Part shown: positions 15,001 through 32,583 of the stretch, piece after piece
Layout: every line of letters starts with the position of its first letter
How positions within the stretch are numbered: the stretch's first letter is position 1
DNA from: Alphaproteobacteria bacterium
GTDB taxonomy: Bacteria; Pseudomonadota; Alphaproteobacteria; Paracaedibacterales; VGCI01
Assembly (NCBI GenBank): GCA_021323455.1
Contig: JAJONN010000011.1
Coordinates: forward strand, 1-33,184
Length of the DNA stretch: 33,184 nt
Direction: 5' to 3'
The notes under the pieces: generated by a model
Seen by the model: the letters and a program-made list of their open reading frames with translations, nothing else
Databases searched by the model: none
Told to the model about the DNA's origin: nothing
Translations under genes and position numbers: made by a program

Positions 15001-18000
15001 TCTTTTTTGACCCCTGCCGCTCGTCAGCTTCCACAAGACCATAGATCTCTGCCGCCGATACCGCCTTGACCAGATGTGTCTGCCCAAGACTTGTCTGGTC
15101 AAATCCACTTCCTGCCCCCTTAAACGTTTCCAGGTAAAAATCGCGCATGCCATTTTCCACCTGGGTAATAAATTTAGAAACGTCCAGGGACATTCCCATC
15201 TTGCGGGAAAGGTCAACCATCCTATCAATGTCATGGTCTTCAAACAGGATGCGGGCGATCTCGTTCCGGGCAGCAGCCAGAGGGGCATAAATTTTGAATG
15301 ATGGTGTCTCCCAGATACGAATGTCTTGGCCACCTGGGCCTACAACTTTGACAGATTTTGCTTCAACCTCCTCTATACAAACTTTGTAAGCCTTGTTCGC
15401 CAAATAGGTTGCCTTCTCATAACGTTGAAGTGTATGGAAGATTTTAATATCCTCTTCTGTGTCCAAGGTTTGTAAGACGCGGTTTTGATGGTAAGCATTG
15501 GCAACCTGGCGTAATTCCTTAAAGTCAATGCCTACATCATAAAGCTGCCTTGCAGTAACGGATCCTCTCCTTTTTCCAAAACCTTGGGTGTCACCCAGCT
15601 TATCCTCTTGCCTATCTGGTTCGCCTTCCTCTTCCCCTTTGTCTTGTTCCTCTGCCAACACGCTTGTTCCTGACACGTGTGCCGTTGACGCGCGTTTCTC
15701 AGAATTCATGAGATTGATGAGAGCAAGGGCGGATTTTCCTTTTTCTTCTTCATTCAGAGACGTCAGGTACTTTTCAATGTGAGTATCTCTGAACGCCCTC
15801 TCCCCCCTTAAAAATATCTGCTCAAGCTCAACTTCCCTCAGATTGAGGCCCATAAGGCCAGCAAGCGCCAAAACTTCCCCATGGTTGCTTTGATCAAAGA
15901 TTTCCAGGGCAAGCTGGTTACGGGGTTTACAGGCTTTTTGGTAAATAGGCCAGGAAGGGGCGTCCCATGGTTTGAGTTGTGTCTCTTCTTGCCCGTCCCT
16001 TTCCTTACCCTTACCCATTTCCTGGGAGTTTTCATTGGGAAGGTTTCCCTTCATCTCTTCAATCTCATTCAGGCACACCACATAAGCCCGGTTGGCCTCT
16101 CGGCATTTATCGTCATACTCATCCAGGAGAAGGAAAAGCTGCCGCTCCGCCTCTGTCTTTAACCCTTCAAAGAGCTTAAGTTTTTGATATTCAAGGGCGT
16201 GCCTGGCAATATCTTTGGGCAGCACCCCTTGCGCATAAACCTGGGCAACCGTAACCTTCTTCTTGGCTTCGCGATCCTCATCCATTAACGCCTTGATCTC
16301 AAAAGCCGCGTGGAGTTTTGCTGTTTCTTCGGAGGACGTTGTATAAGTTTTAAGAAGATTATCCAAGACGGCTCGATCTTTTTGTCCTATCAGGACTTCA
16401 AAGTTGAGATTCATCCCCAATTTCTGGATCAAAGGATGATAATCCTCCCAAGAATCAACAATTTTGAGAGCGAGCTGGTCCTGCTCCCCCCTCATTTCCC
16501 GCCACTCGTCAATTTCCTTGCAAAACCCTTCCGACAGCAGCGTTCCTTTAAAGGCTTCCAGCCTGGGCTTTAACCCTTTCCATAAAGAAGCCGATAAATC
16601 ACGGGCTTCAACATAAGCCAGGAGGGTTTGGAGCTTTTCGATAAGCGCAGGGTCGGACGTATCCTTCAACATCTCTTGCTGGAGCATTTTGGAATGATGA
16701 GCTTCGCTTTGCGCCTTAATGATATGCAAACCATAGCCAAAGTGATTGTTGACACCCTCTTCCTCAAAAGTCTTTGCTGTATCCTTCAGAAAAGGACGGT
16801 ACAGAACAGGATCCTGGCTGATCTGGTTGGCCAGTAACCCCCTTTGGTCCCTTAAAGCCTCAAAATGCCGCCATTCAGGATGTGTCTTAGCTCGTCTTCC
16901 AGGATGTGTCCTTCGGATGGTATGCCACACCTGGCGGGTTTCTATGGCAACACTGGCGTATTGCTCAACGACGAGCCTGGCTTGTTCTTCCCGGCGGCTT
17001 AAGGGACGCTTCTTTACCCCCGCGGCAATTTCGATAGATTCAAACGTTAGTCCTGCCTGACGGGCAAAATCCTTAAAAACATCCCAATCTTCCAGAATAA
17101 GCTTGGCCAGTCCCTTCCGTTTTTCCTTAAGCTCTCGGACCGTTGCCCAAGCCCTTTCCTGTTCTACCTTATCTGTTTCGTCGCCTCCCTTGGCACTGAC
17201 GTGTCTGGCAAAGGCACAAACCGACATCAATTCAAAACCCAAATCCTTGTATTCCTGGATACATGACCAAAATTCCATGCTTTCTTCCAAAATACTGTAA
17301 TCCGCCGCCAGGTCTTTCTGGGAAACCTTCCCTAAACTCTTAAGGAGAGAAGGGAAATCGGCAAAATCCTCTTTGGCATAATAAGCACTGATATCTTCCC
17401 GATGACGGGTCATGGCCACATAAAGCATGTACGCATCCATGTAGCGGGATAATTTTAGAAGGGAACTATCCCCTGTTGCTCCTTGCGTCTTGTGAATCGT
17501 GACGGCATACCCATGCTGGAAATACGAATATTCCCGCAAATAAAAGCTCACAAACGTGGGCTTTGACGCGATTAAGCCCCCCTTGCCCTTTGCATCTTCC
17601 TCAACACGGACACATATTTTGTGCGTATCATAGAGCTTGCCCGTATCCCATTCCTTCATGCGGCAAGGCGTGATGGATTCGATGCGCCCTTGTGTGCCAT
17701 TCCTGACAAAGAAAGATGGGTCAGAACTGTCAAACTTCGTCCAGAATCCCCGGTCATTTTTGGTAAAGACAATTTTATCCCCTATCGTGTAGCCTTCTTC
17801 GATATAAATTTTTTCCTTTTTTACTTTCCCTTTTTCTCCCTCTGTCTGTCCTGTTGCCTGATTTTTTGCCTTGCTTGTTGTTGGTTCTGTTTCCCCCCCT
17901 CTTGGTGATGTTTTGCCTCTCTTCTCTTCCCTTTCTGTTACCTCTGAGCCTGCTTTTTCCCCTTCTGTTTCTATGCTTTCCCTGTTATCCAAAAATCCTT

Positions 18001-19987
18001 CAGGATCCCTTTCTACCTGTTTTTTGCGTGTTAATAGGTCTTCTGCTGCAAGCAAGCCGTTTTCTTTCAAAATGGCCCGGATAGCTCCGTTAAGTTCCCG
18101 AACTTCCTCATTTGTGTACGCCATTGCCAAAACTTCCGAGTCCGGTTGAGCAACCAGGTTGCGGAGGTACTGGCGAGCCATGTCCTGGTAAACATCCGCG
18201 TTTATTTCATGGCTCTGGATATGACCCTGATTTTCATACATCCCCAAGGCTTCGCCTGTCCTCAGCTCCGCCAGATGGGCAGAAGCCTCTTTCATCCAGG
18301 GAGCTTTCTGACGCTGGATTTCTGTCAAGGTGCATATATTGCCTGTGTCCTTAAAATCTTTGATGACTTTGGGAAGAACATCTCCGGCTTCAACAGGCTT
18401 GGCTTGATGGTCGTCCCCCACCACCATCAATTTAGCGCCTGTCGCATTAACGATCTTGATGAGGGCATGCCATCCTCCGGATATCTTTTCCAGCGCATCA
18501 CCCGTCCCAACCATGCCAATTTCATCAACGAGGATCAGGGTGTTTTGGTCCGGAAATTTCTTAGATGCTTCTCCCTTTGATCCACGCGTTATTTTGCAAG
18601 CCTCGGCCAATTCTCGGTAATGCTCCCTTTCCTCCTCTGTTGTGGCTTTTTCAAGTTCCTCAAGAGCTTCAAAATAGGGCTTCCAGTGGTAGGCATAATG
18701 GGCAATCGTGTCGCTCTGGCAGCCTGCGCCTTTTCTCAGTTCATGGGCTGCTGTAGCCGACGGGGCCATGCCCAAAACCGTATATCCCGCCTCCTGATGC
18801 AACTGGACCACATACTGCAAGGCCGTGGTTTTTCCTGTCCCTGCCCGCCCGATTAACACGGAGAATTTTGCGTCACCAGAAAGGGTTTTGACCGCTTCTT
18901 TCTGCCCTGCGTTTAACCAAGACGCCTCCCCAGCCAGCAACCCATCAACCCGCTCCTGAGAGATAGAAACCACCGCTGTTTGGTCTTTGTATGCCTCTAG
19001 GGATTCTAAGATATGGTCTTCCCGCGCCTTATAGTCAGCAGAGGTATAACGCTTGATATCATCATACCCCACCCCCACCTCAACAGCCTGTTTCATCACA
19101 GAATAGATGACATGCTGGGATACAATTCCTGCCTCATCCTGGAGGCGGTATTGCACCAGTTTCACCACATCCCGCTCAGAAAATGTCGCTTTCTTGGACG
19201 TCAGCTCCCTCAAGATGATTTCTGGTTCTTCCGCAATCCGCTGCTTGTTTTCTTCAGAAATTTCCGCATTTTGCGCCGCAATGCGGGAGAATAGCCCTTC
19301 CCTTTCCAATTGATGGGCTTGCCATCCTTTGTGATGCGTCGGGATGAGGTCAATGCCTCGATCCGCATAGGAACGCCAGTCCACCCGGTCGGAAAGCCCT
19401 GCCTGTTCCTGGTGCGTGTTAATGCATTGCGCAAAAATTTTCCTGGTTTCTCGGAACTCTTTTTGTGACGTTAAAAGACGGGCAACACTTTTGTCCCAGG
19501 AAATTTCCCCGTTCCAGACGGTACGGGTGGAAACTGTAATATGGACATGGGGGTTACCTTCATTCCAGTTAATGGCATAGGTCGCCACCAGACCCTTTGA
19601 CACGAACCGCTCAACCGTGACATCACGGACCAAGGCAATGTTCTGTTCCCTTGTCAGTTCTTTGGGGAGGGAAAGTTCGTAGGTTTGCCCAACGCGGGCA
19701 TGGGATAGATATTTCTCCAAGGTTGCCGGATTCTTGAAGCGTTGTTCAGCATAAAAGTCTTCAAAGCTTTCCAGTTTGTCCCAGAAGGACAGGTCGTTCT
19801 CCTCGATGCCTGACCCCAGAGGAGCCATGGTTGCCCAGGTTGTTTTGCCCCGGTTGTTCGCATAGTCCGCCTTAAGACCACGCCGCTCTTCATACAAAAT
19901 CTCCCCTGTAATATAGGCCACATTCTGGACGGTGCCGCGCCCTGTACTCCGGGAAATATGACCAATGCTCAAATGAAAAAAATTCAT
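12029..19987 (-). CDS. traA: Ti-type conjugative relaxase-helicase TraA (MobA/MobL domain, RecD/TraI-like helicase, long repeat array, Toprim-like C-terminal domain)
   Basis: 'MNFFHLSIGHISRSTGRGTVQNVAYITG' and 'NWNEGNPHVHITVSTRT' HUH motif; Walker A 'LIGRAGTGKTTALQ'; 'LILVDEIGMVG'; 'GYAVTIHKTQGAT'; C-terminal 'VLVVEGEKTADIAQKRLPEFVVISWIGGTGAPHKSNWEPLKGKAVAIWPDNDFDGKGLKAAQ'. Confidence 0.95.
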   Translation of the reverse strand: MNFFHLSIGHISRSTGRGTVQNVAYITGEILYEERRGLKADYANNRGKTTWATMAPLGSGIEENDLSFWDKLESFEDFYAEQRFKNPATLEKYLSHARVGQTYELSLPKELTREQNIALVRDVTVERFVSKGLVATYAINWNEGNPHVHITVSTRTVWNGEISWDKSVARLLTSQKEFRETRKIFAQCINTHQEQAGLSDRVDWRSYADRGIDLIPTHHKGWQAHQLEREGLFSRIAAQNAEISEENKQRIAEEPEIILRELTSKKATFSERDVVKLVQYRLQDEAGIVSQHVIYSVMKQAVEVGVGYDDIKRYTSADYKAREDHILESLEAYKDQTAVVSISQERVDGLLAGEASWLNAGQKEAVKTLSGDAKFSVLIGRAGTGKTTALQYVVQLHQEAGYTVLGMAPSATAAHELRKGAGCQSDTIAHYAYHWKPYFEALEELEKATTEEEREHYRELAEACKITRGSKGEASKKFPDQNTLILVDEIGMVGTGDALEKISGGWHALIKIVNATGAKLMVVGDDHQAKPVEAGDVLPKVIKDFKDTGNICTLTEIQRQKAPWMKEASAHLAELRTGEALGMYENQGHIQSHEINADVYQDMARQYLRNLVAQPDSEVLAMAYTNEEVRELNGAIRAILKENGLLAAEDLLTRKKQVERDPEGFLDNRESIETEGEKAGSEVTEREEKRGKTSPRGGETEPTTSKAKNQATGQTEGEKGKVKKEKIYIEEGYTIGDKIVFTKNDRGFWTKFDSSDPSFFVRNGTQGRIESITPCRMKEWDTGKLYDTHKICVRVEEDAKGKGGLIASKPTFVSFYLREYSYFQHGYAVTIHKTQGATGDSSLLKLSRYMDAYMLYVAMTRHREDISAYYAKEDFADFPSLLKSLGKVSQKDLAADYSILEESMEFWSCIQEYKDLGFELMSVCAFARHVSAKGGDETDKVEQERAWATVRELKEKRKGLAKLILEDWDVFKDFARQAGLTFESIEIAAGVKKRPLSRREEQARLVVEQYASVAIETRQVWHTIRRTHPGRRAKTHPEWRHFEALRDQRGLLANQISQDPVLYRPFLKDTAKTFEEEGVNNHFGYGLHIIKAQSEAHHSKMLQQEMLKDTSDPALIEKLQTLLAYVEARDLSASLWKGLKPRLEAFKGTLLSEGFCKEIDEWREMRGEQDQLALKIVDSWEDYHPLIQKLGMNLNFEVLIGQKDRAVLDNLLKTYTTSSEETAKLHAAFEIKALMDEDREAKKKVTVAQVYAQGVLPKDIARHALEYQKLKLFEGLKTEAERQLFLLLDEYDDKCREANRAYVVCLNEIEEMKGNLPNENSQEMGKGKERDGQEETQLKPWDAPSWPIYQKACKPRNQLALEIFDQSNHGEVLALAGLMGLNLREVELEQIFLRGERAFRDTHIEKYLTSLNEEEKGKSALALINLMNSEKRASTAHVSGTSVLAEEQDKGEEEGEPDRQEDKLGDTQGFGKRRGSVTARQLYDVGIDFKELRQVANAYHQNRVLQTLDTEEDIKIFHTLQRYEKATYLANKAYKVCIEEVEAKSVKVVGPGGQDIRIWETPSFKIYAPLAAARNEIARILFEDHDIDRMVDLSRKMGMSLDVSKFITQVENGMRDFYLETFKGAGSGFDQTSLGQTHLVKAVSAAEIYGLVEADERQGSKKTFGALKGKGISASDVRDYVRHFNRLGLIESLSTEAEKALFRLYSTYDYHAVIAKGIYRQCAADQESLGIKPSESEHFPAWREAALARNAAALAFSKDPGFLKCLELVEQKGFSIDRKLIFSHAQDGYREQIINWYKTLSPSTEAEHEMLSARLADHLVKIIQDDQEEGHKKTLFALYQAGLNPKDVFAAARDFQEFVLFNTLETEEEQEIFGLVFRYKNWSEKANRLYQQCAEDREKLGIKVSDNPLYPDYLATVSERNKGATALLGSPDWDLCWHMADSWGVTLDEDKLIEQSRDSHRQILINHYLQTDSLLVKLLIARDLKEMMDQDQKRTEMEETDLEQTPMKGQKVTVADLYRHNIFPKDIHAEARQFDRIVTYANLTNDNEKKIFSLLEQYNDMVIQSNRHYSACFQEAEEQGIKKEKTASYALFQEVLKDRQKTASLIQHAGSPHLIEWIAEELGVTLKTLDKDCRDYDTRLKNLAMLSQPQNQEIRPSFKAKEEEPEWKPILPVPQSAPPLPDQSNYYKREDMRHAYKDAQGNLLGYVVRLVDRKTGKKETPPITWCVNKEGEHRWKWKGFGDDNRSLYGLDRLAQHPDKPVLVVEGEKTADIAQKRLPEFVVISWIGGTGAPHKSNWEPLKGKAVAIWPDNDFDGKGLKAAQKVQEIIFGHNEATAVGEEDQGRSTGHVGIVILPEGVLENTWDLADDLPTGWTMDTVRQMIKEALTPQDKSMATDDDVQSNLSHGEAPLVKDSEALLKEEKIKPFHKDDPLLEKREQFEQGRFLLNQEWCEKFHFYEVHGRFPNPDELADTWWQAERLTAIEGRLYHQNLTRGVSIALADLCQEARQAFLKSGNITSEAKETINAALLRHSQAGQVEQHILFHKDRTGSDPSLVRIQEIIEAVKEHEGTGNFQVSNDVSRFSNQYLHLIEQQEILAVRMEQRSFEGGKETSSFLDNKDNKIAKLNLQITRTLEFERDCQQREVDKARGLSI
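13560..16270 (-). repeat. Degenerate protein-level repeat array (about five ~170-230 aa modules, possibly more upstream) inside TraA
   Basis: Module starts: 'KKVTVAQVYAQGVLPKDIARHALEYQKL', 'GSVTARQLYDVGIDFKELRQVANAYHQN', 'LKGKGISASDVRDYVRHFNRL', 'LFALYQAGLNPKDVFAAARDFQEF', 'QKVTVADLYRHNIFPKDIHAEARQFDRI'. Each continues with 'L.T..E..IF.L...Y......AN..Y..C'. Confidence 0.75.
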
Positions 19988-20146
19988 GGTGGGCAACGAT
20001 TTTAAAATTATAAATAATATAAAACGGACTATTTTAAGGCGTATTTTGAATTATTAAACAATATATTAAGTATAAAACATTAAATATACCAGTTAATAAT
20101 ACACATACCACTACTCCACCATACGCCGCCGGCTAGGCCAACGCAA

Positions 20147-20171
20147 GCGCAAAGGCGCGTAAGTGCGCACT
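20147..20171 (+). other. oriT: Candidate origin of transfer (nic region)
   Basis: Hairpin GCGC-AAAG-GCGC directly followed by 'GTAAGTGCGCACT', one mismatch from the TAAGTGCGCCCT nic core recalled for MobQ/RSF1010-pSC101-type oriTs. Lies between divergent traA and traC/traD-like genes. Confidence 0.6.
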
Positions 20172-20395
20172 GCCCGAGCCAGTGACCTTGGATATCGGAG
20201 AAGGTATTGACCAACTATTACTATTCCTATACTATGAAATAGATAATAAAATACGCACAGCCGCTCCAAAAAGCCCCTAAGAACCCCATTCAGCCGGGAA
20301 CCATCAAAAAAGCCGATAGGTTGGCGGGGCGCGTAGGAAGCCCCAATAGGGGCCTATGGACGGCAACAGGCAACAACAAGGAGGAAACGTTACCC

Positions 20396-20761
20396 ATGAC
20401 TGCCAAAAATACCAGCCCCACCCCTAAATTATTGACACGCCGCGCGCTGGGACACCGCCTTACGCAAGTCACCGAGAAGATGACAGCCTTGCAACGAGAA
20501 CAAGATGAGATCTGCCAAGATTTAAGCCAAAACATAAGCCGCGAATTAACACAATGCCTGGTCGATGCGAAAGCACTGGACATTGAATTTAATATCCTCA
20601 TGGGCGGCATCCTTGAGGTGGTCTCCCAAGCCAAAGCCGACACCTCCAAAGCGGAGGCTTGGCGAAAATCAGGTCAAACGTTTCACGAACGCCGCAACCG
20701 TATTGACCGAAGCAAGAGAGCCGAAAACGGCCAGTTTCGGGAACTGCAAAAGCCACACTAA
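20396..20761 (+). CDS. TraC-like conjugal transfer accessory protein
   Basis: SD AAGGAGG followed by ATG at 20396. Coiled-coil-like protein placed between the oriT candidate and a TraD-like gene, as in Ti-type modules. Assignment is mostly from synteny. Confidence 0.55.
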   Translation: MTAKNTSPTPKLLTRRALGHRLTQVTEKMTALQREQDEICQDLSQNISRELTQCLVDAKALDIEFNILMGGILEVVSQAKADTSKAEAWRKSGQTFHERRNRIDRSKRAENGQFRELQKPH

Positions 20762-20837
20762 AAGGAACAAGGGCTTAACCATTTCTACCCAAGAAATCCA
20801 GAAATACCAAAAAAAATTGCAAGCGCTGAGGGGCAAA

Positions 20838-21188
20838 ATGAATAGGCTTTTATCGGCAAAATCAAGGATTCATACCACAATGAAAAGACAAACTTTGAGC
20901 GACAGAGCCGCCCGAACAAGAACCTTTATTCAGGCAGGGGGCTTGTTAAATTTATCTGGCCTTTTTGATATTTGCCAAATTGAACAAGGGGACGATCTGC
21001 AATTTGACACGGACTCCCAAGACAAAGCCGCTACCCTTCTCGGCATCCTTTTAGACGCGGTGGATAAAATCCCTGATCCACCGGATGCGGGCCAAATGGA
21101 AAATTGGCGGGCATCTGGTACGCGGCTTTTAAAACAACGGGCAGCGCAAAAAGCCTATCAAAAAATGAAAGGGCGCCCATACTCTTAA
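20838..21188 (+). CDS. TraD-like conjugal transfer protein (true start may be the upstream TTG 20817 or ATT 20781)
   Basis: 'RAARTRTFIQAGGLLNLSGLFDICQIE...AATLLGILLDAV' resembles the TraD (Ti) 'R.RRLIELGGLV.KAGL...ALLGAL' pattern. Confidence 0.65.
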   Translation: MNRLLSAKSRIHTTMKRQTLSDRAARTRTFIQAGGLLNLSGLFDICQIEQGDDLQFDTDSQDKAATLLGILLDAVDKIPDPPDAGQMENWRASGTRLLKQRAAQKAYQKMKGRPYS

Positions 21189-22152: not shown

Positions 22153-22587
22153 ATGAAAATGATAAAGCTTCTTGATAACGGAACTGAAGTGGGATGGTTT
22201 GAAACCTGGCAGGAACTACATGAACACATAACGACTGTTGAAGATTCACTACTCCCTACTCATTCTAAATTTGCAAACGACTTATGGAACTTTGGAATTT
22301 GTAGTACTAACCAAATTACGGAGCAACCCAAAGCCCCATGGAGCTTCGAGATTTATAGCCCTAAACAGGTTGCCCTTCGGCTCCAGGATAAGAAAAAACC
22401 TTCATATAATATTCCCGTTATGATGGAAGCTGTTCACACAAGGCTTTCCTTGCTTGAAATTTGCAAAGGCGATTCTAAAAACATAACCTCGATTATCCTG
22501 ACAACGGATATTGATGTTGATCTTTTACTGCAAAACTGGTGCAAAATGTACGCCACTGCGAATGACTTTACGGTGGTAGAAGAATAG
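22153..22587 (+). CDS. Hypothetical protein, 'LLEICKGD' family member 1
   Basis: 144 aa. 'YNIPVMMEAVHTRLSLLEICKGDSKNITSIILTTDIDVDLLLQNWCKMYATANDFTVVEE' matches 30403..30840 closely. Confidence 0.75.
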   Translation: MKMIKLLDNGTEVGWFETWQELHEHITTVEDSLLPTHSKFANDLWNFGICSTNQITEQPKAPWSFEIYSPKQVALRLQDKKKPSYNIPVMMEAVHTRLSLLEICKGDSKNITSIILTTDIDVDLLLQNWCKMYATANDFTVVEE

Positions 22588-22630
22588 GTGGTTAAATACA
22601 GACGACCATAGTTAGAAAGGATGCGGAGCA

Positions 22631-23062
22631 ATGGTTGAAAATCAAACAAGCATGGGGCTACTAACAACAGATAGGACCCGGTCAAACATGGGATTATTTA
22701 AAGATTACAGTAAGCTTTTTAACCTTATTTGTGAGCTGGTTCCTGACGTTAAATTTCATACCGAGTGGAGATTTATCTCTCACTCTGCTGACGCGGTCGC
22801 TTTATGCTACCAGAATATGGAGTGGGATGGCATTGCAATAAATCCAGTTCTTAAAGAAGCATATGAACAAAAATTATCCCTGTTGGAAATTTGCACCGGG
22901 GATTGTATGGATACTCAGTACATTGCCCCAACCTCAAGCGCCCATATGTATCACCTCATGAAACAATGGTGCATCGCTTACTGTGAGTTTCATAACCTTG
23001 ACTTTACTGTCACTGGTGAAGGAGAAAAAGACGCCTTAACAAGGATTTGGGAAGGCAAATGA
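22631..23062 (+). CDS. Hypothetical protein, 'LLEICKGD' family member 2 (divergent)
   Basis: 'LKEAYEQKLSLLEICTGDCMDTQYIAPTSSAHMYHLMKQWCIAYCEFHNLDFTVTGE'. Confidence 0.7.
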   Translation: MVENQTSMGLLTTDRTRSNMGLFKDYSKLFNLICELVPDVKFHTEWRFISHSADAVALCYQNMEWDGIAINPVLKEAYEQKLSLLEICTGDCMDTQYIAPTSSAHMYHLMKQWCIAYCEFHNLDFTVTGEGEKDALTRIWEGK

Positions 23063-23585: not shown

Positions 23586-23822
23586 TTAAAGCTGACACCC
23601 ACTTATCTCATTTATCTCATTTAAAGTTAACCCAAAACACGTACCAAACAAAATTCCACAAAAAAATGTAAGAATTATTAAACGAGCTACTTGAATTTCG
23701 GTTAAATGAATACAGTCATTGTAGTCACACGCTAACAAGGGAAAATCATTGTGTTTTGCTTCCTGGGTGCTATTTGTGATTGAATCATTTTGCGGACTTG
23801 GGGTAGATGTAATATAGGTCAT
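23586..23822 (-). CDS. Small single-TM protein with the shared leader peptide
   Basis: Start at 23822 ('MTYITSTPSPQNDSITNSTQEAK...') after SD AAGGAG and the shared promoter-hairpin module. TM 'VARLIILTFFCGILFGTCFGL'. Confidence 0.65.
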   Translation of the reverse strand: MTYITSTPSPQNDSITNSTQEAKHNDFPLLACDYNDCIHLTEIQVARLIILTFFCGILFGTCFGLTLNEINEISGCQL

Positions 23823-23854
23823 TGATAAACTCCTTGCTTGTTTATTGATGGTCA

Positions 23855-23929
23855 GCAGTGCCAAGGTGTTCAAGATCTTGGCACTGCGTTTACTCTTTAA
23901 GTATAATCAATTTTCGGAAAAATCGTCGA
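23855..23929 (-). promoter_or_regulatory. Shared promoter-hairpin module, copy M1
   Basis: -35 TCGACG (23924-23929), 18 bp, -10 TATACT (23900-23905), then AAAGAGTAAACGC and a perfect 11-bp stem GCAGTGCCAAG/CTTGGCACTGC (23855-23887). Confidence 0.8.
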
Positions 23930-24201
23930 CATTTATTTTTAAATTTTTATATTTTTATTTGATATATTTATTATCAATTACATATATGATTTGTCAAAAA
24001 CTCCTTTTTTGATTTTGTATTTTTTTGTATTCTTCTATGAAATAATCAGGAAAAAGCCACAGCAGAATTTCTGAAACGCTTTGACTGAACTACCAATCAA
24101 GAGGCGTAGGATGAAAAGAACATGAAAAAAAGAGGCACTCACTAAAAAATGAACGCCCTTGAAAAACTTTATATATTCATTAATTTTTAAAATCTCGGTC
24201 C

Positions 24202-24846
24202 TTAAAAGCGTTCAAGGTAATTTGCCCTTGCTTCCGAGTCTTCAAAATCGTTAGGAAAAAGGCGGCGGGCTTCTTCCTCCTGCTTTTTTATCTGTTGGGC
24301 TTGCCAATCTATTTCCAGCAATTCATCAACATGAGAAGGCGAGTTTTTATGCAAAAGCGCCGCCTTCTCTTTGTAATGTTTTTTCAACTGGTCTTTTTTA
24401 ATCCTGTCTGTTTTAGTTGCCATTTGATGCTTTAATCTATAGAGTTCATAGACAAGCTCAATCAAAAAGTGAATCTCGCTAAGTTCTTCTTCAGAAACGG
24501 GAAGGTTGCGTTGATGTGCTAATTTTTGTTTAAACTCAGTCAAAAAGTTTATGGCACGGTCAAGGTTAGGCTTATCTGCCAAAGCATGATAAATCCCCCT
24601 GCTCAAATCAAAATAAAGGTCATAGGGGTCATCATAAAATACAAAATTATCAAGTTTAGCATCGATTGGACAATAAGGCACATCTTGTAGCTTGTCGTCA
24701 CAGCCGCCAACTTTTTCCCTCACCTTGGCTGTTTTGCCACGCAGTCTCCAAGGTAGAAGATCGCAAAAACCTTTAAACCTTGTTTCCAGGGGTCTATTTT
24801 GAATTAGATAATTTTGCGGCTTTCGGTTAAACATAATATTGATCAT
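24202..24846 (-). CDS. Hypothetical protein with the shared leader peptide ('MINIMFNRKPQNYLIQN')
   Basis: 214 aa, Glu/Lys-rich helical C-terminus; start preceded by SD and hairpin copy M2. Confidence 0.7.
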   Translation of the reverse strand: MINIMFNRKPQNYLIQNRPLETRFKGFCDLLPWRLRGKTAKVREKVGGCDDKLQDVPYCPIDAKLDNFVFYDDPYDLYFDLSRGIYHALADKPNLDRAINFLTEFKQKLAHQRNLPVSEEELSEIHFLIELVYELYRLKHQMATKTDRIKKDQLKKHYKEKAALLHKNSPSHVDELLEIDWQAQQIKKQEEEARRLFPNDFEDSEARANYLERF

Positions 24847-24877
24847 TGATAAGCTCCTATAAGTTAATTAATGGTCA

Positions 24878-24910
24878 GCGGTATCTTGGCTTCGACTCCT
24901 TCGATACCGC
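24878..24910 (-). promoter_or_regulatory. Shared 5'-UTR hairpin module, copy M2 (divergent)
   Basis: GCGGTATC/GATACCGC 8-bp stem after 'AAAGCGC', then 'TGACCATTAATTAACTTATAGGAG' as in M1. A second inverted repeat CGTATCC/GGATACG lies upstream. Confidence 0.65.
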
Positions 24911-24990
24911 GCTTTCTCGTATCCACCCCATCGTCACTAAAGATTCCGATAGAGCGGATACGTGTATCCCCCTGCATAGAGGGGGTGTCT

Positions 24991-25395
24991 TTATTCCCTT
25001 TCAGCTAATGCAAACCTCTTGAATTTATTTAAAGACCCGGAAAAAATTATTTCGTATTCGATATCTTTATCATCATCAAAAAATGGCGGTTCTCCCCCTA
25101 ACCGTTGGTAAGCCACGACATAGAGCGATTGATCTTTGAAGGATATTTCATAACGGTAACCCAAATTCCTATAGTCTTCATAAGAGCGGGACAGCCTGAC
25201 ATCCCCACCCCCTGATTTATTCGCTACTATAAAAGATGCCCCAAATTCATCCGCTTCAAACCTTGTTAGTTCCCCAGTTAATTTTAAAGATTTCTCAATA
25301 AAATGGGCTGCGCCGGAAGGGTGACCATCCCAATGTTTGTAAACGTGAAATGTATTCAAACTGTCTTTAAATGTATAAACTGCTCGTGTACTCAT
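24991..25395 (-). CDS. Conserved plasmid-type hypothetical protein ('MSTRAVYTF...HVYKHWDGHPSGAA')
   Basis: 134 aa. Resembles widespread mobile-element hypothetical proteins. 5'-UTR has a 12-bp stem (TTGGAGACCGTG/CACGGTTTCCAA). Confidence 0.75.
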   Translation of the reverse strand: MSTRAVYTFKDSLNTFHVYKHWDGHPSGAAHFIEKSLKLTGELTRFEADEFGASFIVANKSGGGDVRLSRSYEDYRNLGYRYEISFKDQSLYVVAYQRLGGEPPFFDDDKDIEYEIIFSGSLNKFKRFALAERE

Positions 25396-25477
25396 TTTCG
25401 ATCTCCTCTATTTGGAAACCGTGCGATCCACGGTCTCCAATTGTTGTTTCAATGGAACGTTGCAAAATTATGGGGTG

Positions 25478-26539
25478 TTATAATACTTCTGAAGGTTTCA
25501 GAAAGGCAGACAGCCCGTGCAAATAATTAACCGCACGCTGGGCATGGGAAGCGGCAGTAAATATGGCTCGGTTATCTTTTTTGAGAATAGAAAGCCAATG
25601 CTGGACGTAGGCCGCATGATCTTCTCGGGTTTCTAATGTAATCCCTAAAGCAGCGCACAGAAAGGCCGAGCCGATCTCCGCAACGAGTTCCTCCATTATA
25701 TAGGCAGAGTTACCGAAACGCTTTTCGCCGAATTGCCGGTCAAGGCGCGACGGATGGTTTGTCCAGTGGATGATTTCATGAGCAAGGGTGGCATAATAAC
25801 TTTCACTATCACGGAAAGCTTGAGATAGCGGCATTTGAATCATATCTTCTGAGGGGCTATAAAAAGCCTTGTTGCCCCCATGCTGAATAACGGCTTTTGT
25901 CTCAGCAATAAATTTTTCCACAGACTCAATGCGGGCTTTTGTATTCTCGCTATGAGAAGGCGTTTTATAGAATTTTTCAGGTAGGCCGCCGATCTGTTCC
26001 ACGTTAAACGCCGTGTATCCCTTCAAGAAAGGAATAGCGGAGACCGTCTCCTCTCCTTGCTCGTCAGTTTCAGATTTAACGATTTTATTAGCGTACACAA
26101 CGAGGGTGCCTTTTTCGCCTTTTTTAACGCACCCTCCAAGTTCTTGTGCTTTCTTAAAAGTCATCCAAATAGGACGGGTGTAGCCCTTCTCGGCTGCTGC
26201 TCCCCAAAGGCTCAATACATTAATTCCCTGGTATGGTTGCCCGTCACAACGTAACGGAATGGACAGACAGTCCCCAAAGTCATTTGATGTTTTCCACGGC
26301 TTTACCCATGTCAGGTTTCCTTTTTCTAGATCAGCAATGATTTTATTGGTAACGCGGGTATAGATATCTTGCCTGTCGTCACCATCAGGGCTGGATTTTT
26401 GATGAAACCTTGTTTTTGATTTATATTTTGGCAAAGACGGCAAAGCTTCGCTTGCCTGAAATTTATACTGATTTATATCTTGGGCAGTATTTGTAGTTGA
26501 ATAACTTTGGGGGTTTGATGTAACAATACTATCAGTCAT
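25478..26539 (-). CDS. ArdC-like antirestriction/zincin metallopeptidase with the shared leader peptide
   Basis: 'IYTRVTNKIIADLEKGNLTWVKPWK', 'YQGINVLSLWGAA', 'WMTFKKAQELGGCVKKGEKGTLVVY', HExxH 'LAHEIIHWT'. N-terminus 'MTDSIVTSNPQSYSTTN'. Confidence 0.92.
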   Translation of the reverse strand: MTDSIVTSNPQSYSTTNTAQDINQYKFQASEALPSLPKYKSKTRFHQKSSPDGDDRQDIYTRVTNKIIADLEKGNLTWVKPWKTSNDFGDCLSIPLRCDGQPYQGINVLSLWGAAAEKGYTRPIWMTFKKAQELGGCVKKGEKGTLVVYANKIVKSETDEQGEETVSAIPFLKGYTAFNVEQIGGLPEKFYKTPSHSENTKARIESVEKFIAETKAVIQHGGNKAFYSPSEDMIQMPLSQAFRDSESYYATLAHEIIHWTNHPSRLDRQFGEKRFGNSAYIMEELVAEIGSAFLCAALGITLETREDHAAYVQHWLSILKKDNRAIFTAASHAQRAVNYLHGLSAFLKPSEVL

Positions 26540-26573
26540 GACGATAACTCCGTTTCAGTTATGGTTGTGATTA

Positions 26574-26650
26574 GCAACATCAAGGTACTGGTAATATCTT
26601 GGTGTTGCGCTTACTCTTTTATCTTAATCAATTTTCACTAAAACTGTCAA
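26574..26650 (-). promoter_or_regulatory. Shared promoter-hairpin module, copy M3
   Basis: -35 TTGACA (26645-26650), 18 bp, -10 TAAGAT (26621-26626), AAAGAGTAAGCGC, stem GCAACA.CAAG/CTTG.TGTTGC (26574-26608). Confidence 0.85.
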
Positions 26651-26843
26651 CAATTAATTTTAATTTTTTAAATTTTTATTATTTTAATTTTTATAATTTA
26701 AAACATAGATTTTTCAGAAATACATTTTTTGAATTTGCATTTTTTTATTCTTTTTTGAAGAGGCCAAAATGAATATTACATATATTTTTAAAACCTCCTA
26801 TAAGCAAGAAATGGTCCAGTCTATCGGGTTACAAAATGGAAAA

Positions 26844-26858
26844 CGCCCAAAACGGGCG
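26844..26858 (-). terminator. Intrinsic terminator downstream of the DUF2958 gene
   Basis: CGCCC-GTTTT-GGGCG stem followed by TTTT on the minus strand. Confidence 0.6.
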
Positions 26859-26882
26859 CTTTCCTATATCATAGCATCAAAG

Positions 26883-27395
26883 TTAAGCGTTAATGCTTCC
26901 CTTCTCTCTTGCTAATTTGGCATACTCAGATAAGGTTTTGTCCGCAACAAACCACCTGTCCCTTTCTACGGGAAGGCCAAGTTTTCCCCTTAAAGTTTTC
27001 AATTCTGCAAGATCAACATACCCTATTTCTGGTTCACCATGTCCGAGATCACACAACCCCAATGCTCTATTTGTCTCAGGGTTAAGTTCTGTTAATAGCC
27101 AGGTACATTGCGCGTCTGGTGTGAACAGCTTGACGACAGGCTTAAAATCAATCGGGTAGCCATCTTCCTGGATGATAGCGTCATTTTTTGAAAAGTTCAT
27201 TTCCAGTTTCTGGCGCTGAGATTTGGTCAATAATTTTATCTTCCCTTCTGATAGGCCGTCTTCCTTTTTTATCAAGTGGTCTGCTAACAAGCGTCTGCTA
27301 CCTACAATATGGGTATTTGTGACGTTGTTATCTAATTTTTGGCCATTGAGGATTGAATAATTTTGTGAGCTTAATTTAACAATAATATCAGACAT
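26883..27395 (-). CDS. DUF2958-like protein with the shared leader peptide
   Basis: 'VVKLFTPDAQCTWLLTELNPETNRALGLCDLGHGEPEIGYVDLAELKTLRGKLGLPVERDRWF'. N-terminus 'MSDIIVKLSSQNYSILN'. Confidence 0.85.
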   Translation of the reverse strand: MSDIIVKLSSQNYSILNGQKLDNNVTNTHIVGSRRLLADHLIKKEDGLSEGKIKLLTKSQRQKLEMNFSKNDAIIQEDGYPIDFKPVVKLFTPDAQCTWLLTELNPETNRALGLCDLGHGEPEIGYVDLAELKTLRGKLGLPVERDRWFVADKTLSEYAKLAREKGSINA

Positions 27396-27431
27396 GTCTA
27401 TAACTCCGTTTCAGTTATGGTTGTGATTATT

Positions 27432-27506
27432 AATATCGATGTACTGGTAATACATTGATATTGCGCTTACTCTTTTAGAGTAGTAAAATTTCAATAAAAA
27501 CGTCAA
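27432..27506 (-). promoter_or_regulatory. Shared promoter-hairpin module, copy M4
   Basis: -35 TTGACG (27501-27506), 18 bp, -10 TACTCT (27477-27482), AAAGAGTAAGCGC, stem AATATC.ATGTA/TACAT.GATATT (27432-27462). Confidence 0.85.
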
Positions 27507-27763
27507 TACTTATTTTCATATTTTTTGTTATTTTTTAAGATAAAGTCATTTATATTTTCTTCAACATAAGTTGAAGAAAAATTAATAAAAAAGGATTTCG
27601 CTTATGGAAAACAGAACATAAAGGAAAATGTATTAACCAGCCCACAGGTATCCCCTATTTTCCGTAAAAAAATGAAAGGGAAAGCTTCTTGCCCACCCCC
27701 CTACACCTGTAAGTTGGCTTATTTGACGTTTTCCTGGATCATCAATTTAATTGGTTCGCTTGG

Positions 27764-28160
27764 TTAGTGTTGCCCTGCTGCCGCAATTTTCAGATTATCG
27801 GCGTAACAATCATCTTTAACCAGCATCTCCCCTTTTCGTGCATTCTTGTTCCGGCCATGGCTCACAAGACATTTTACAATTCCCATATAGCCATGCGTGT
27901 TGTCAGCATCCCCCGTCCTAAACATTCGGGTTTTCGCTGTACTCAACCAAATATGCGACAACACCTGAAAGGTGTCCATCTTCAGTTGCCAACACCATCG
28001 CCGTGCTGTAATCAGAATCTATATCGCCATATCTCTTGGTCTCCTGTTCCTTTAAAGATTTGTTGACATCAAGGTGGCCATTTTTGGCAGTCTCGGCCAA
28101 TGTTTTATCATTGGCGATTGAAAAGTTTGGAAGTTTTGGTGTAAAAATGATATCAGTCAT
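27764..28160 (-). pseudogene. Ankyrin-repeat protein with the shared leader peptide, frameshifted near 27920-27930
   Basis: 'MTDIIFTPKLPNFSIANDKTLAETAKNGHLDVNKSL...ATEDGHLSGVVAYLVEYSENPNV*' continues in another frame as 'RTGDADNTHGYMGIVKCLVSHGRNKNARKGE'. Confidence 0.7.
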
Positions 28161-28194
28161 AATCTTAAGTTCTCAATAGTTAAGATTGTGATTA

Positions 28195-28270
28195 GCAGCA
28201 CTATAGTAGTGCTAATACTTGGTGCTGCGCTTACTCTTTTATATTAAAAAATTCTTAATAAAACCGTCAA
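28195..28270 (-). promoter_or_regulatory. Shared promoter-hairpin module, copy M5
   Basis: -35 TTGACG (28265-28270), 18 bp, -10 TAATAT (28241-28246), AAAGAGTAAGCGC, stem GCAGCAC/GTGCTGC (28195-28228). Confidence 0.85.
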
Positions 28271-28575
28271 TATTTGTTTTTTGTATTTTTTTAATTTTTT
28301 ATTATAATATTATCCCATCCTTTAAAATCAAAATATTGAGAAATTTTTTCTTTGCATTTTTTGTACCCTTCTTTAAAGCAACCAAAGTAAATGCCATATA
28401 CCTTCTTTGAAACGTCTGGAAAAAATAATGACCCAAGATATGGGCTTATAAACCAGAAAGCACCCAAGATCGGAAGGGTACCAAGATTGGAAATGCACGA
28501 GTCATTTTTAAGAAGCGATGAACGAAAGACGCACCGCCTTTAGCTTCAAAAAGCATCCAGATAATCCTTATAAAA

Positions 28576-28605
28576 GGGGCGGGCTAATCCTTGCTCACTC
28601 GCCCC
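28576..28605 (-). terminator. Intrinsic terminator downstream of the ankyrin gene
   Basis: GGGGCG/CGCCCC stem followed by TTTTA on the minus strand. Confidence 0.5.
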
Positions 28606-28620
28606 CAACTGTTAGCGGCT

Positions 28621-29658
28621 TTATCCAGTTGTTAACACCTTTGTTTTTAAAGCATTGGCTTCTTGATTAACCAAAAACTTCACAATCGGTAAGTAACGCT
28701 TTGAGCACGCCAATCTTAAAGCCATTTCACCTTGAGCAAAAATATTAGCACCTTTGTCAACCAAATACTCGACCATTTCCGAGCTACCCCTCTGGGAAGC
28801 GGTTATTAAGGCACGCTCCTCGTGGGCATGGATATCCGCCCCTTGATCAACCAAATATTTTAAAATGTCTGGGTCATTTTGCAAAGTGGCCAAATAAAGG
28901 GCGTGTCCCTCTTGGGCGTGGATGTCGGCCCCTTGGTCTACTAAATACTTCACAATCACTAGATAACTATGCGATATGGCTTTAAAAAGGGCTGCCTCGC
29001 CTCTAGCGTGGATATCCACTCCTTGAGCAACCAAATACTCGACCATTTCTGGATTCCCCAACCTGCAAGCAGCTATTAAGGCGTTCTCCTGTTCATAGTC
29101 AGCCCCGTACATAACATGGATATTGGCTCCCTGTCCAACCAAGTATTTTAGGATGTCCAAGAAACCTCCTAAAACAGCTTTATAAGCAGCCTCATCAAAG
29201 GCCCCTTTTTTTATCCGGGTAAGATCGCTTATTTGTTCAACCAAACACTTAACCATTTTCAAGTTTCCTGTCTCGGCTGTACGGCCTAATACTTTGGAAA
29301 ACTTGCCAATCCGGTGTTGAAGGAAACATTTTACGACTTCAAAATGGCTGTTATTAATAGCTTTCTTAAGCGCTTCTTCTGCATCCCACAAAACTCGTCG
29401 CTTCTGAAGTATTTTAGCTACGGACATATCCTTGTATATTTCTTCGGGAATGGATTTATCTTTGAATTCTATTAAGTACTTTACAATTTTATCATGACCC
29501 CTTTTCGCTGCCTCGATGATGGCCCAACCATATTCATAAGGGATGCGGGATTCCTTTTCCATCAGTCGCTTGACGCCTTCAAGATAGCCATTTGCGGCAG
29601 CATTACATAATGTGTACGTTGGGTGCTGCGTTTTGTAGACTCCCATTTTCTTTCCCAT
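28621..29658 (-). CDS. Ankyrin-repeat protein; shared leader peptide lies upstream out of frame
   Basis: Repeated 'LVDQGADIHAQEGHALYLATLQNDPDILKYLVDQGADIHAHEERALITASQRGSSEMVEYL'. Leader ATG at 29716 'MTNSIITSKPQNYSTTDVLD' is in another frame from the 29658 start. Confidence 0.9.
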   Translation of the reverse strand: MGKKMGVYKTQHPTYTLCNAAANGYLEGVKRLMEKESRIPYEYGWAIIEAAKRGHDKIVKYLIEFKDKSIPEEIYKDMSVAKILQKRRVLWDAEEALKKAINNSHFEVVKCFLQHRIGKFSKVLGRTAETGNLKMVKCLVEQISDLTRIKKGAFDEAAYKAVLGGFLDILKYLVGQGANIHVMYGADYEQENALIAACRLGNPEMVEYLVAQGVDIHARGEAALFKAISHSYLVIVKYLVDQGADIHAQEGHALYLATLQNDPDILKYLVDQGADIHAHEERALITASQRGSSEMVEYLVDKGANIFAQGEMALRLACSKRYLPIVKFLVNQEANALKTKVLTTG

Positions 29659-29750
29659 CTAAGACATCGGTAGTTGAATAATTTTGGGGCTTTGATGTAA
29701 TAATGCTGTTAGTCATAATCTTAACTCCTATCAAGTTATGGTTGTGATGA

Positions 29751-29827
29751 GCAGTATCCAAAGTTGTCTACACCTTGGATACTGCGTTTACATCTTTATA
29801 ATAAATAATTTTTACTAAAAATGTCAA
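29751..29827 (-). promoter_or_regulatory. Shared promoter-hairpin module, copy M6
   Basis: -35 TTGACA (29822-29827), 18 bp, -10 TATTAT (29798-29803), AAACGC, 11-bp perfect stem extendable to 13 bp GCAGTATCCAA/TTGGATACTGC (29751-29785). Confidence 0.85.
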
Positions 29828-29933
29828 TAAGTAAAACAAAATTTTTTATATTTTTATTATTATAATTTTGAATTTTTTAAATATGGTTTCATTGTAAATT
29901 TCCTTTTTTAGTGTGTGTTTTTTATATTTCCTA

Positions 29934-30401
29934 TTAAAGAGGCCAGGAAAGATGTGGGTTTTCAATTTTTTTCAAGAGAAAAGGGTAATTTTCATATGGT
30001 TTTTGTAACAAGCGGTCAAACACCATCATCTCGCTCCCCCTCCAAATAGACATGCCATGAGCAGCGCAATAATGCTCGTTCCAGTCTTTCTGAAGAGCAG
30101 CAATATCAAGATCGAGCGTAACCAGGAAGAGGGAGGGCTTCTCCCAATCCCCTTTGCATATAACGATGAGGTCACATTCCTGCTGTACCGCTTGCGATGC
30201 CATATAAGCAAAAGGCATGTCCTTCATTTCTTTCACGCAAGTAGCAAGCAACTTATGGGAATATCGGCTGAAACCCCAATTGTACCTCGACTGTCCGTCC
30301 GAATTTTTAAAACTTTCCTGCTTCTTGAGGTAATCCAAAAGCTCACCCTCTGTTTTAAACATTTTAATTGTGTGAAATTTATTATCTCGCAGTATGATCA
30401 T
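29934..30401 (-). CDS. Hypothetical protein, 'LLEICKGD' family member 4 (divergent)
   Basis: ATG 30401 after SD AGGAGG. 'CDLIVICKGDWEKPSLFLVTLDLDIAALQKDWNEHYCAAHGMSI'. Confidence 0.7.
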   Translation of the reverse strand: MIILRDNKFHTIKMFKTEGELLDYLKKQESFKNSDGQSRYNWGFSRYSHKLLATCVKEMKDMPFAYMASQAVQQECDLIVICKGDWEKPSLFLVTLDLDIAALQKDWNEHYCAAHGMSIWRGSEMMVFDRLLQKPYENYPFLLKKIENPHLSWPL

Positions 30402-30402
30402 C

Positions 30403-30840
30403 TTAACCTCCTGTATGTTCGCCCTCTGCTTTATTGAAATCAGCGGGGCTTGTAACCTCAGACAAAACGTAGCCAAAGGCTTTGCAAAAATCCTGGCACC
30501 AAGTGTACTTTAAAGCTTCAACATCAATATCCCGCGTTAAGATAATGTGGATAAGGTTGTTACAATCCCCTTTGCAAATCTCGAGCAAGCCAAGCCCCTT
30601 CTCAAAAGCTTCCATCATGATCGGGATATTATGTTGTATTTGATTATGCTGAAGTAGATAGGCAACCTCTTCACGGCTACGAGCGGTAAAGCTCCAGGGG
30701 GATTGCGGGAATTTAGGTGGATTTTTCTCAAGCGCCTCTAATATCCTTAAATTTTCTAGATGGGTTATGTAGTCATAAAGTTCCTGCCGGGTTTTAACGG
30801 ATTCAACTTTTGTTCCGTCTTCCTTAAATAATTGTATCAT
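30403..30840 (-). CDS. Hypothetical protein, 'LLEICKGD' family member 3
   Basis: 'HNIPIMMEAFEKGLGLLEICKGDCNNLIHIILTRDIDVEALKYTWCQDFCKAFGYVLSEV'. Stop is next to the start of 29934..30401. Confidence 0.75.
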   Translation of the reverse strand: MIQLFKEDGTKVESVKTRQELYDYITHLENLRILEALEKNPPKFPQSPWSFTARSREEVAYLLQHNQIQHNIPIMMEAFEKGLGLLEICKGDCNNLIHIILTRDIDVEALKYTWCQDFCKAFGYVLSEVTSPADFNKAEGEHTGG

Positions 30841-31007
30841 TTTTCAGTTTCCTTTTTTAAACATAGCCCTTCCCTGCCTTCCACAAAGGAAGCAGCATCG
30901 CTCAGGGCGATTTTTACGCATAACTAAGGGAGGCCATGAGGGCGGGTGAGGAAAATGCTTAAAAATTGAGAACCAGCGCCCCTAACGTCCCATAAAGAAA
31001 AAAGGAG

Positions 31008-31041
31008 CCATTCCCCAAAACTTGGGGAAAAAGCTCCGCCT
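31008..31041 (-). terminator. Intrinsic terminator of the small unit at 31044..31319
   Basis: GGAGC...CCCCAA-gtt-TTGGGG...GCTCC followed by TTTTTT on the minus strand. Confidence 0.6.
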
Positions 31042-31043
31042 TC

Positions 31044-31142
31044 TCATATTACATGAGCCGGAGGGGTATATTTTCGGCCTTTCGGCCATTTAAGGATTAG
31101 ATTGAAAATACGCACGATGTGCGATAACTTGTGCTTAGCCAT
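31044..31142 (-). CDS. Putative 32-aa basic small protein downstream of divergent module copy M7
   Basis: MAKHKLSHIVRIFNLILKWPKGRKYTPPAHVI*; lies between the M7 hairpin/linker and a terminator. Confidence 0.4.
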   Translation of the reverse strand: MAKHKLSHIVRIFNLILKWPKGRKYTPPAHVI

Positions 31143-31172
31143 GACTCAACCTCAACTGTTGATTTGTGGTTA

Positions 31173-31319
31173 GCAACGTGTGGGTATGTCTAGTACTCAT
31201 ACGTTGCGGTGCTACGGACCATCCGTAGCATTACGTTTCAAGGAGGAGATGCGTAGCCGACATGACCATAATCTCCAACCTCTGTTTTTAGGATAGGCTG
31301 GAAGCTGGGCCGAAGTCAA
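31173..31319 (-). promoter_or_regulatory. Shared promoter-hairpin module, copy M7 (divergent, two hairpins)
   Basis: Candidate -35 TTGACT (31314-31319), 18 bp, TATCCT (31290-31295); hairpin TGCTACGGA/TCCGTAGCA (31210-31230); hairpin GCAACGT/ACGTTGC (31173-31207) followed by 'TAACCACAA'. Confidence 0.55.
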
Positions 31320-31419
31320 AACATTTTTTTTAATTTCATGCCTTCAAATATGGAAAATTCCCCCTAAAATCAATGGGCAGAAGTTCCGATGTATCGACTT
31401 TTAAAGCCCCATCAGAAAG

Positions 31420-31545
31420 AAATGGCAGCCCTTGTAATATGAAACATGGTAAAAAGCTTACACTCTCTTTGCCATCTATATTTATGATCCTTTTCTTGGT
31501 TGGGTTTGGTTCTGTGTACACCACCAAAGAATTTACGTCAGCTCG
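31420..31545 (+). pseudogene. Decayed partial duplicate of the PLD nuclease 5' region
   Basis: 'AAATGGCAGCCCTTGTAATATGAAAC' vs 'AAATGGCAGCCCTTTTAATATGAAAC' at 31941; 'SIFMILFLVGFGSVYTTKEFTSA' vs 'PLLIILFLGGFGAGYTAKKFTPS'. Confidence 0.8.
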
Positions 31546-31916: not shown

Positions 31917-31959
31917 TTAAGATACTGGTTCTTTAGGGAGAAATGGCAGCCCTTTTAAT

Positions 31960-32583
31960 ATGAAACGTCGCAAAAGGCTTAAAGCCCCTTCGTCTCCTCT
32001 GTTGATAATCCTTTTCCTGGGTGGATTCGGCGCCGGATATACCGCCAAAAAATTTACGCCATCTCAACAAACTGTTACCGCACCCCCGCATCACCCATCC
32101 CAGCCTACCCCCTCTTCTACTGGTCTTCCTGTCTCTGTGTGTTTTACCCCCAACAAGCAATGTCAATTACAGATTATTAATGAAATTAACAAGGCAAAAA
32201 AATCTGTTCATATCCAGGCGTATTCATTTACGGATCAAAATATTGCCCAAGCTCTTGTTGACGCCAGCAGACGCGGCGTCATGGTCAAAGCACTCCTCGA
32301 CAAGAGCAACAGGAAAGACAGCCGGTCTGCAAAAGACCTGCTTATACAAAATAACATCCCTCTCCGTTTTGATTCCCCGCCTGGCATTGCCCACAACAAA
32401 ATTATTATTATTGATGGTCAAACACTTATTACAGGGAGCTATAATTTCAGCGCCGCAGCCTATAAAAGAAACACCGAAAACCTTCTCGTGATCAATAGCC
32501 CAACACTGGTTAAAGATTATATGCAAAATTGGCTGAAACGCTGGGACTTATCTCAACCTCCCCCTGCTGTTACCGTCCGATAA
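31960..32583 (+). CDS. Phospholipase D-family nuclease/lipase with N-terminal signal/anchor
   Basis: HKD motif 'HNKIIIIDGQTLITGSYNFSAAAYKRNTEN' and 'VHIQAYSFTDQNIAQALVDASRRGVMVKALLD'; hydrophobic N-terminus. Confidence 0.92.
   Translation: MKRRKRLKAPSSPLLIILFLGGFGAGYTAKKFTPSQQTVTAPPHHPSQPTPSSTGLPVSVCFTPNKQCQLQIINEINKAKKSVHIQAYSFTDQNIAQALVDASRRGVMVKALLDKSNRKDSRSAKDLLIQNNIPLRFDSPPGIAHNKIIIIDGQTLITGSYNFSAAAYKRNTENLLVINSPTLVKDYMQNWLKRWDLSQPPPAVTVR

Follow-up and report, generated by a model that had tools for sequence, protein, structure and literature searches.

The small RNA SymR of Escherichia coli belongs to symE/symR, a type I toxin-antitoxin system (Kawano et al. 2007, PMC1891008). The symR promoter is embedded in the symE gene, and SymR blocks the translation of SymE (PMC1891008; review PMC4147584). 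So far, SymR has been associated with a single gene, symE of enterobacteria, for which it acts as the antitoxin. Here, seven related modules (M1 to M7) were analyzed in a DNA stretch of 33,184 nucleotides from an alphaproteobacterium (contig JAJONN010000011.1, designated C29, of the 1.73-Mb draft genome GCA_021323455.1); this whole stretch is referred to as the window. An alpha_tmRNA match of 242.9 bits supports the assignment to the class; in the control, this model gave a match only in Caulobacter. Each module precedes a gene on the minus strand and would encode a short RNA on the plus strand. The characteristics described below make it highly probable, as judged from sequence, that these RNAs are SymR-type cis-antisense repressors that have become detached from SymE and now control genes for an ArdC-like protein, a DUF2958 protein, ankyrin-type proteins and small proteins.

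In the original prediction, M1 and M3–M6 were described as units of a common promoter, AAAGAGTAARCGC, a hairpin, a linker and a Shine-Dalgarno sequence upstream of unrelated minus-strand genes, with 18 bp between the −35 and −10 boxes, and M2 and M7 were regarded as divergent members of the set. This layout was found again, with a degenerate −35 box in M1 (TCGACG), and the genes behind the modules are indeed unrelated (ArdC-like, DUF2958, ankyrin, and 78-aa and 214-aa proteins). M2 and M7 have no sense promoter at the usual place, and a promoter-like sense site of M7, TTGACT-N18-TATCCT, is located about 150 nt further upstream. Not only the upstream DNA but also the first ~17 codons are common to the module genes, and a second stem-loop is formed by pairing of the linker with the Shine-Dalgarno/start region.

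At each of the seven sites, a plus-strand RNA of about 74–78 nt with two back-to-back stem-loops was predicted. The predicted RNAs overlap the first nucleotides of the gene (6 nt in M1 and M3–M7, 7 nt in M2), its Shine-Dalgarno sequence and its 5' untranslated region (UTR). They are listed below with the scores of the Rfam symR family (RF01809) and of R3, a covariance model built from these alphaproteobacterial sequences only.

23817–23890, plus strand: SymR-like RNA of M1, ends extrapolated from E. coli SymR (R3 match 23810–23887, 57.8 bits; fold −34.5 kcal/mol)
24840–24913, plus strand: SymR-like RNA of M2, degenerate (R3 match 24834–24910, 31.9 bits, and fold)
26534–26611, plus strand: SymR-like RNA of M3, antisense to the start of the ArdC-like gene (Rfam symR 49.5 bits, E 2.8e-7; R3 70.7 bits)
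27390–27467, plus strand: SymR-like RNA of M4, antisense to the start of the DUF2958 gene (R3 match 27383–27464, 58.0 bits)
28155–28231, plus strand: SymR-like RNA of M5, antisense to the start of an ankyrin-type open reading frame (ORF) (Rfam symR 40.7 bits, E 3.7e-5; R3 50.8 bits)
29711–29788, plus strand: SymR-like RNA of M6, over the leader ORF before the ankyrin ORF (Rfam symR 43.0 bits, E 1e-5; R3 59.3 bits)
31137–31210, plus strand: SymR-like RNA of M7, antisense to the start of a 32-aa ORF (Rfam symR 37.6 bits, E 2.1e-4; R3 61.6 bits)

The comparison with Rfam gave no match in the window at the gathering cut-off. When matches below it were displayed with their E-values, four window copies (M3, M5, M6 and M7) matched symR on the plus strand at the exact positions of the RNAs, with 49.5–37.6 bits and E-values from 2.8e-7 to 2.1e-4, and relatives of the modules matched likewise (best score 52.8 bits). 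The element had not been recognised as a described family, but it is closely related to symR, though below the curated cut-off. In the reverse test, R3 recovered the annotated E. coli symR with 47.4 bits (E 2.9e-11). The predicted RNAs share with SymR a length of ~77 nt, two stem-loops, a cis-antisense position, the 6-nt overlap with the start of the gene, coverage of the Shine-Dalgarno sequence, a promoter within the coding sequence of the target (here, a predicted signal) and sequence motifs, namely AGUCAUGA, UUGUGAUUAGC and GCGCU, the last at the 3' end. They differ from it in their targets, which are unrelated genes and not SymE, in their score below the Rfam gathering cut-off and in their number, which reaches seven copies per array and 22 per genome. 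A LexA-type box was not found in the window past 23 kb in its GTTC-N7-GTTC/GAAC forms; other LexA motifs were not searched.

Relatives were collected using successive covariance models. The model R1, built from the seven window copies, found relatives within the same order (its match L011 was rejected as a chance match), and the second model, R2, revealed 22 copies in G003, a sister genome, as well as numerous further ones in another family (13/17 genomes). In total, 107 elements were aligned; with few exceptions, each immediately precedes the Shine-Dalgarno sequence and start codon of an ORF, and these ORFs are diverse and mostly small. In the genome of the window itself, close similarity to the module DNA was confined to this contig, and the covariance model added one copy on contig C50; a DNA search of plasmids with the module M3 gave no match. 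R3 matches were found in 20 of the 385 sampled genomes of the class, in 19 genera, including 15 genomes at E ≤ 1e-4, these E-values being rough. SymE (PF08845) was over the cut-off in none of the 385 genomes, with a positive E. coli control, and it was also absent from 44 proteins encoded on the sense strand, in a scan that recovered E. coli SymE. In E. coli, 2,841 genomes contain a symR match, in one or two places, and among the matches listed nearly every one is annotated as symE. One further SymR-like RNA, found on a viral contig (L225, 344–425), covers the start of an AntA/AntB phage antirepressor gene (PF08346, E 6e-27). Full-text literature searches retrieved no description of SymR-like RNAs in Alphaproteobacteria or opposite genes other than SymE; as most subscription papers were outside the literature covered, this is weak evidence of novelty.

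An integron attC-like site, a mobile repeat and a repetitive extragenic palindromic (REP) element were also considered, from the sequence alone, and rejected; the G003 copies end at the sense −35 box and the stop codon, as expected of duplicated genes. Close to contig ends in L084, L085 and L114, three elements are broken up at differing points by one common sequence (CCATGGCGATTGCACTGAAA...), which is probably an insertion sequence.

The diversity of the controlled genes bears on the nature of the units. It is rather unlikely that these genes are genuine toxins and that each unit is a type I addiction module, although SymE/SymR itself is of this type (PMC1891008), the units are multicopy and close to mobile genes and HipA/AbiE-like ORFs, and M1 encodes a small protein that contains a hydrophobic stretch. 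The known partners, namely ArdC, DUF2958 and the AntA antirepressor, argue for general silencing instead; very different short peptides follow the element within one genus, and none of them matched a toxin family at E ≤ 0.001. Sok, Rdl and Sib, other type I antitoxin RNAs with a 5' overlap, are similar to the predicted RNAs in that the translation of a neighbouring gene would be blocked, but they show no match in sequence or architecture, and their toxins are small hydrophobic peptides.

An origin independent of SymR, with convergence on a two-hairpin antisense RNA that represses in cis in the same manner, was estimated to be less probable still. The symR scores below the curated cut-off and the absence of SymE would fit such an origin, and other two-hairpin antisense RNAs (R1162, FinP) give weak scores too. 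However, it is sequence that the RNAs and SymR have in common (AGUCAUGA, UUGUGAUUAGC and GCGCU), not just shape, and the same 6-nt overlap and the E-values obtained in both directions (2.8e-7 and 2.9e-11) also speak for the kinship with SymR.

The strand that carries the structure was determined from the mismatches in the stems. In 67 non-redundant stems, with G.T and A.C scored alike, the gene strand contained 767 Watson–Crick, 143 A.C, 5 G.U and 23 other pairs. Nearly all mismatches of both stems are thus A.C on the gene strand, so that G.U pairing is possible on the plus strand only. Folding of both strands showed that the antisense strand is the more stable one in 87/88 copies, with a mean margin of 16.9 kcal/mol, and ordinary gene starts used as a control had no strand bias (antisense better in 86/193, mean −0.4). 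Within the window, M1–M5 and M7 favour the antisense fold and M6 is neutral. U-turn (YUNR) loops were tried as a strand marker and did not discriminate, being enriched both ways (56 and 44 of 84).

Pairing is maintained while the sequence of the stems varies: double-sided changes were found in 10 of 14 stem pairs among the seven window copies and in 24 of 30 pairs among 38 diverged relatives. For the latter alignment, the covariation score was 0.662 against 0.282 ± 0.013 after shuffling, and none of 500 shuffles reached it. In these 38 sequences, 87.5% of the cells pair in stem-loop 1 (10/15 pairs with double-sided changes) and 96.1% in stem-loop 2 (14/15). Stem-loop 1 was in no search model and, therefore, its pairing is independent evidence. 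The original prediction had put forward RNA structure, and not a fixed DNA operator, as the target of selection; this was borne out, as was covariation in a wider alignment, but the structure belongs to the plus-strand antisense RNA and not to the mRNA 5' UTR in which it had been placed. A stabilising or regulator-binding stem-loop in the 5' UTR of the mRNA is very improbable: the hairpin is near the expected 5' end of the sense RNA, sense folds are also stable (z −1.8 to −5.4) and M6 has a sense G.U, but wobble direction and folding speak strongly against it, and it leaves both the symR matches and a conserved antisense promoter in the coding sequence unexplained.

This promoter was evaluated on the antisense strand of the first 20 codons in 41 clusters (<75% identity), using synonymous recoding as the null. 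A sigma70 promoter signal (TTGAAA/TTGGAA, 17–18 bp, TATAGT) was found, with a mean score of 7.65 versus 6.85 ± 0.09 for recoded sequences (z 8.6); in the sense direction, used as a control, the score was below its own null. Across the relatives, the antisense promoter sits at a fixed place within the first ~16 codons. Its −10 box occupies the same codon position in 34 of the 41 clusters, TA is the ending of codon 6 in 34/39 cases (9.0 expected), and the predicted antisense start is the 5' end of stem-loop 1. In M3, the promoter was located as follows:

26497–26527, plus strand: antisense promoter of the M3 RNA (TTGAAT 26497–26502, N19, AACAAT 26522–26527; predicted start 26534)

The embedding of this promoter in the first codons would be the reason why unrelated proteins share a leader peptide, and the peptide is best read as a by-product of the antisense promoter. 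A conserved secretion signal was ruled out, since the codon choice (codon 6 TA, 34/39) follows the promoter and not the protein. In L058, L014, L010 and others, a second small palindrome (e.g., GCTCATTCTGAGC, GTCCATCCTGGAC) is present at codons 7–13 of the leader ORF, in the spacer of the antisense promoter; it changes in sequence yet stays paired.

All these data allow us to assume that each module is a sense/antisense pair. The gene on the minus strand would be an ordinary one, transcribed from a sigma70-type promoter of its own, and the plus-strand promoter in the first ~16 codons of this gene would make an RNA of about 74–78 nt with two perfect stem-loops, complementary to the start codon, the Shine-Dalgarno sequence and the 5' UTR of the mRNA. 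By this pairing, the RNA would most likely block the translation of its own gene, as SymR does with symE in E. coli. The stems could diverge between copies because each RNA need only match its own mRNA and stay folded, and with such diverging yet paired stems each gene would have a largely private switch. The predicted cognate duplexes range from −135 to −147 kcal/mol; the strongest non-cognate duplex, M3/M4, has −96 kcal/mol, and all others have −72 kcal/mol or weaker. We infer from these features that the RNAs are transcribed and that they repress their genes specifically.

Several observations weigh against the SymR-type assignment or the proposed mechanism. The RF01809 gathering score is 61 bits, against best scores of 49.5 in the window and 52.8 among relatives; the RNAs are therefore named SymR-like and not members of RF01809. 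The M2 RNA is degenerate, the antisense fold of M4 is weak (−19.8), and M6 folds alike on both strands (−29.4 vs. −29.6). The antisense promoter is weaker in the window copies than in the relatives (TTGAAT-N18/19-TAACAAT, with a −10 box of the TAACAA/AACAAT type). In the M copies, no clear terminator was found behind the second stem-loop; the SymR annotated in E. coli likewise stops directly after its own second stem-loop, with no T-run. The RNAs of M3 and M4 are 85% identical and, given their duplex energy, could cross-regulate. Finally, the later copies were found with models containing stem 2, and the pairing of stem 2 is thus partly by construction.

The genes behind the modules and the sense promoter of M3, which has equivalents in M1 and M4–M6, are as follows.

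23586–23822, minus strand: M1 gene, 78-aa protein with one hydrophobic stretch and the common leader
24202–24846, minus strand: M2 gene, 214-aa protein without a known family, with the common leader
25478–26539, minus strand: M3 gene, ArdC-like antirestriction protein, 353 aa (Pfam ArdcN from aa 57, MPTase-PolyVal)
26621–26650, minus strand: sense promoter of M3 (TTGACA 26645–26650, 18 bp, TAAGAT 26621–26626)
26883–27395, minus strand: M4 gene, DUF2958 protein, 170 aa, domain from aa 55
27918–28160, minus strand: M5 gene, ankyrin-like ORF, 80 aa (Ank_2, E 0.002)
28621–29716, minus strand: M6, leader ORF (37 aa, ATG at 29716), then an out-of-frame 345-aa ankyrin ORF (28621–29658)
31044–31142, minus strand: M7 gene, 32-aa ORF MAKHKLSHIVRIFNLILKWPKGRKYTPPAHVI, then a terminator-like hairpin

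In the ArdC-like protein of M3, the first ~41–56 aa are a non-homologous leader, and relatives from Komagataeibacter align from aa 40–42. The ankyrin-like ORF of M5 is probably frameshifted and continues in another frame at 27764–27979. Both ankyrin-type genes (28621–29716 and 27764–28160, minus strand) look frameshifted relative to the leader ORF, which may reflect decay, an assembly error or internal starts. The M7-type units (L014, other G003 copies and window positions 31100–31310) have a sense 5' UTR of ~150 nt with further helices (TGGAGA/TCTCCA and GTTACGA/TCGTAAC) and a terminator behind the 32-aa ORF; this may represent an independent small RNA.

The array adjoins a gene for a MobA/MobL relaxase-helicase of 2655 aa (12029–19996, minus strand). 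An oriT-like motif, GCGCGTAAGTGCGCACTGCC, is located at 20150–20175 between this gene and a TraD-like gene (20565–21188), and in L101 and L098 it is likewise found upstream of relaxases. Nicking of the motif on the plus strand would place the array in the leading region, where ArdC genes are typically found. The single-strand promoters Frpo/ssi of conjugative leading regions are formed by folded single-stranded DNA. Like the modules, Frpo/ssi are repeated regulatory elements before unrelated leading-region genes, e.g., antirestriction genes; here, in contrast, the promoter does not contain the stem, and the evidence speaks for an RNA. That the hairpins are single-stranded DNA elements of a conjugative element, serving as Frpo-like promoters or priming sites for leading-region expression on entry, is scarcely credible even with the relaxase gene and oriT-like motif nearby and a plus strand that would be transferred and also serve as template for the array genes, as most relatives are in chromosomal contexts far from relaxases, the antisense sigma70 promoter and the SymR kinship point to RNA, and DNA folds of the seven modules left the −35/−10 boxes without consistent stem pairing.

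Other features of the window include an inverted pair of homologous genes without an assigned function (22153–23062, plus strand, and 29934–30840, minus strand); members of the same family are found behind most G003 copies of the M7-type element. Methylaspartate mutase E is split into pseudogene-like fragments (5602–6815, minus strand), and type I restriction methylase and specificity domains are fused in one 617-aa ORF (687–2540, minus strand). The start of a PLD-family nuclease gene is duplicated (31373–31544 and 31939–32065, plus strand), and one copy is truncated.

Returning to the SymR-type antisense RNAs, one tentative possibility, less well founded than the assignment itself, is that the RNA, the embedded promoter and the first ~17 codons form a portable cassette that captures the 5' ends of unrelated genes. 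The leader peptide would then be a scar, and each cargo gene in this conjugative-type region (antirestriction, ankyrin and others) would have its own private silencing RNA, possibly keeping the cargo off until entry into a new host.

The occurrence of the element before such different genes suggests that the switch has spread as a reusable control part. If this is true, SymR-type RNA would be a general, portable means of silencing individual genes by sequence-private RNAs. The antisense promoter would also explain the otherwise meaningless N-terminus common to unrelated proteins, and such promoters can mislead predictions of start codons and effector signals.

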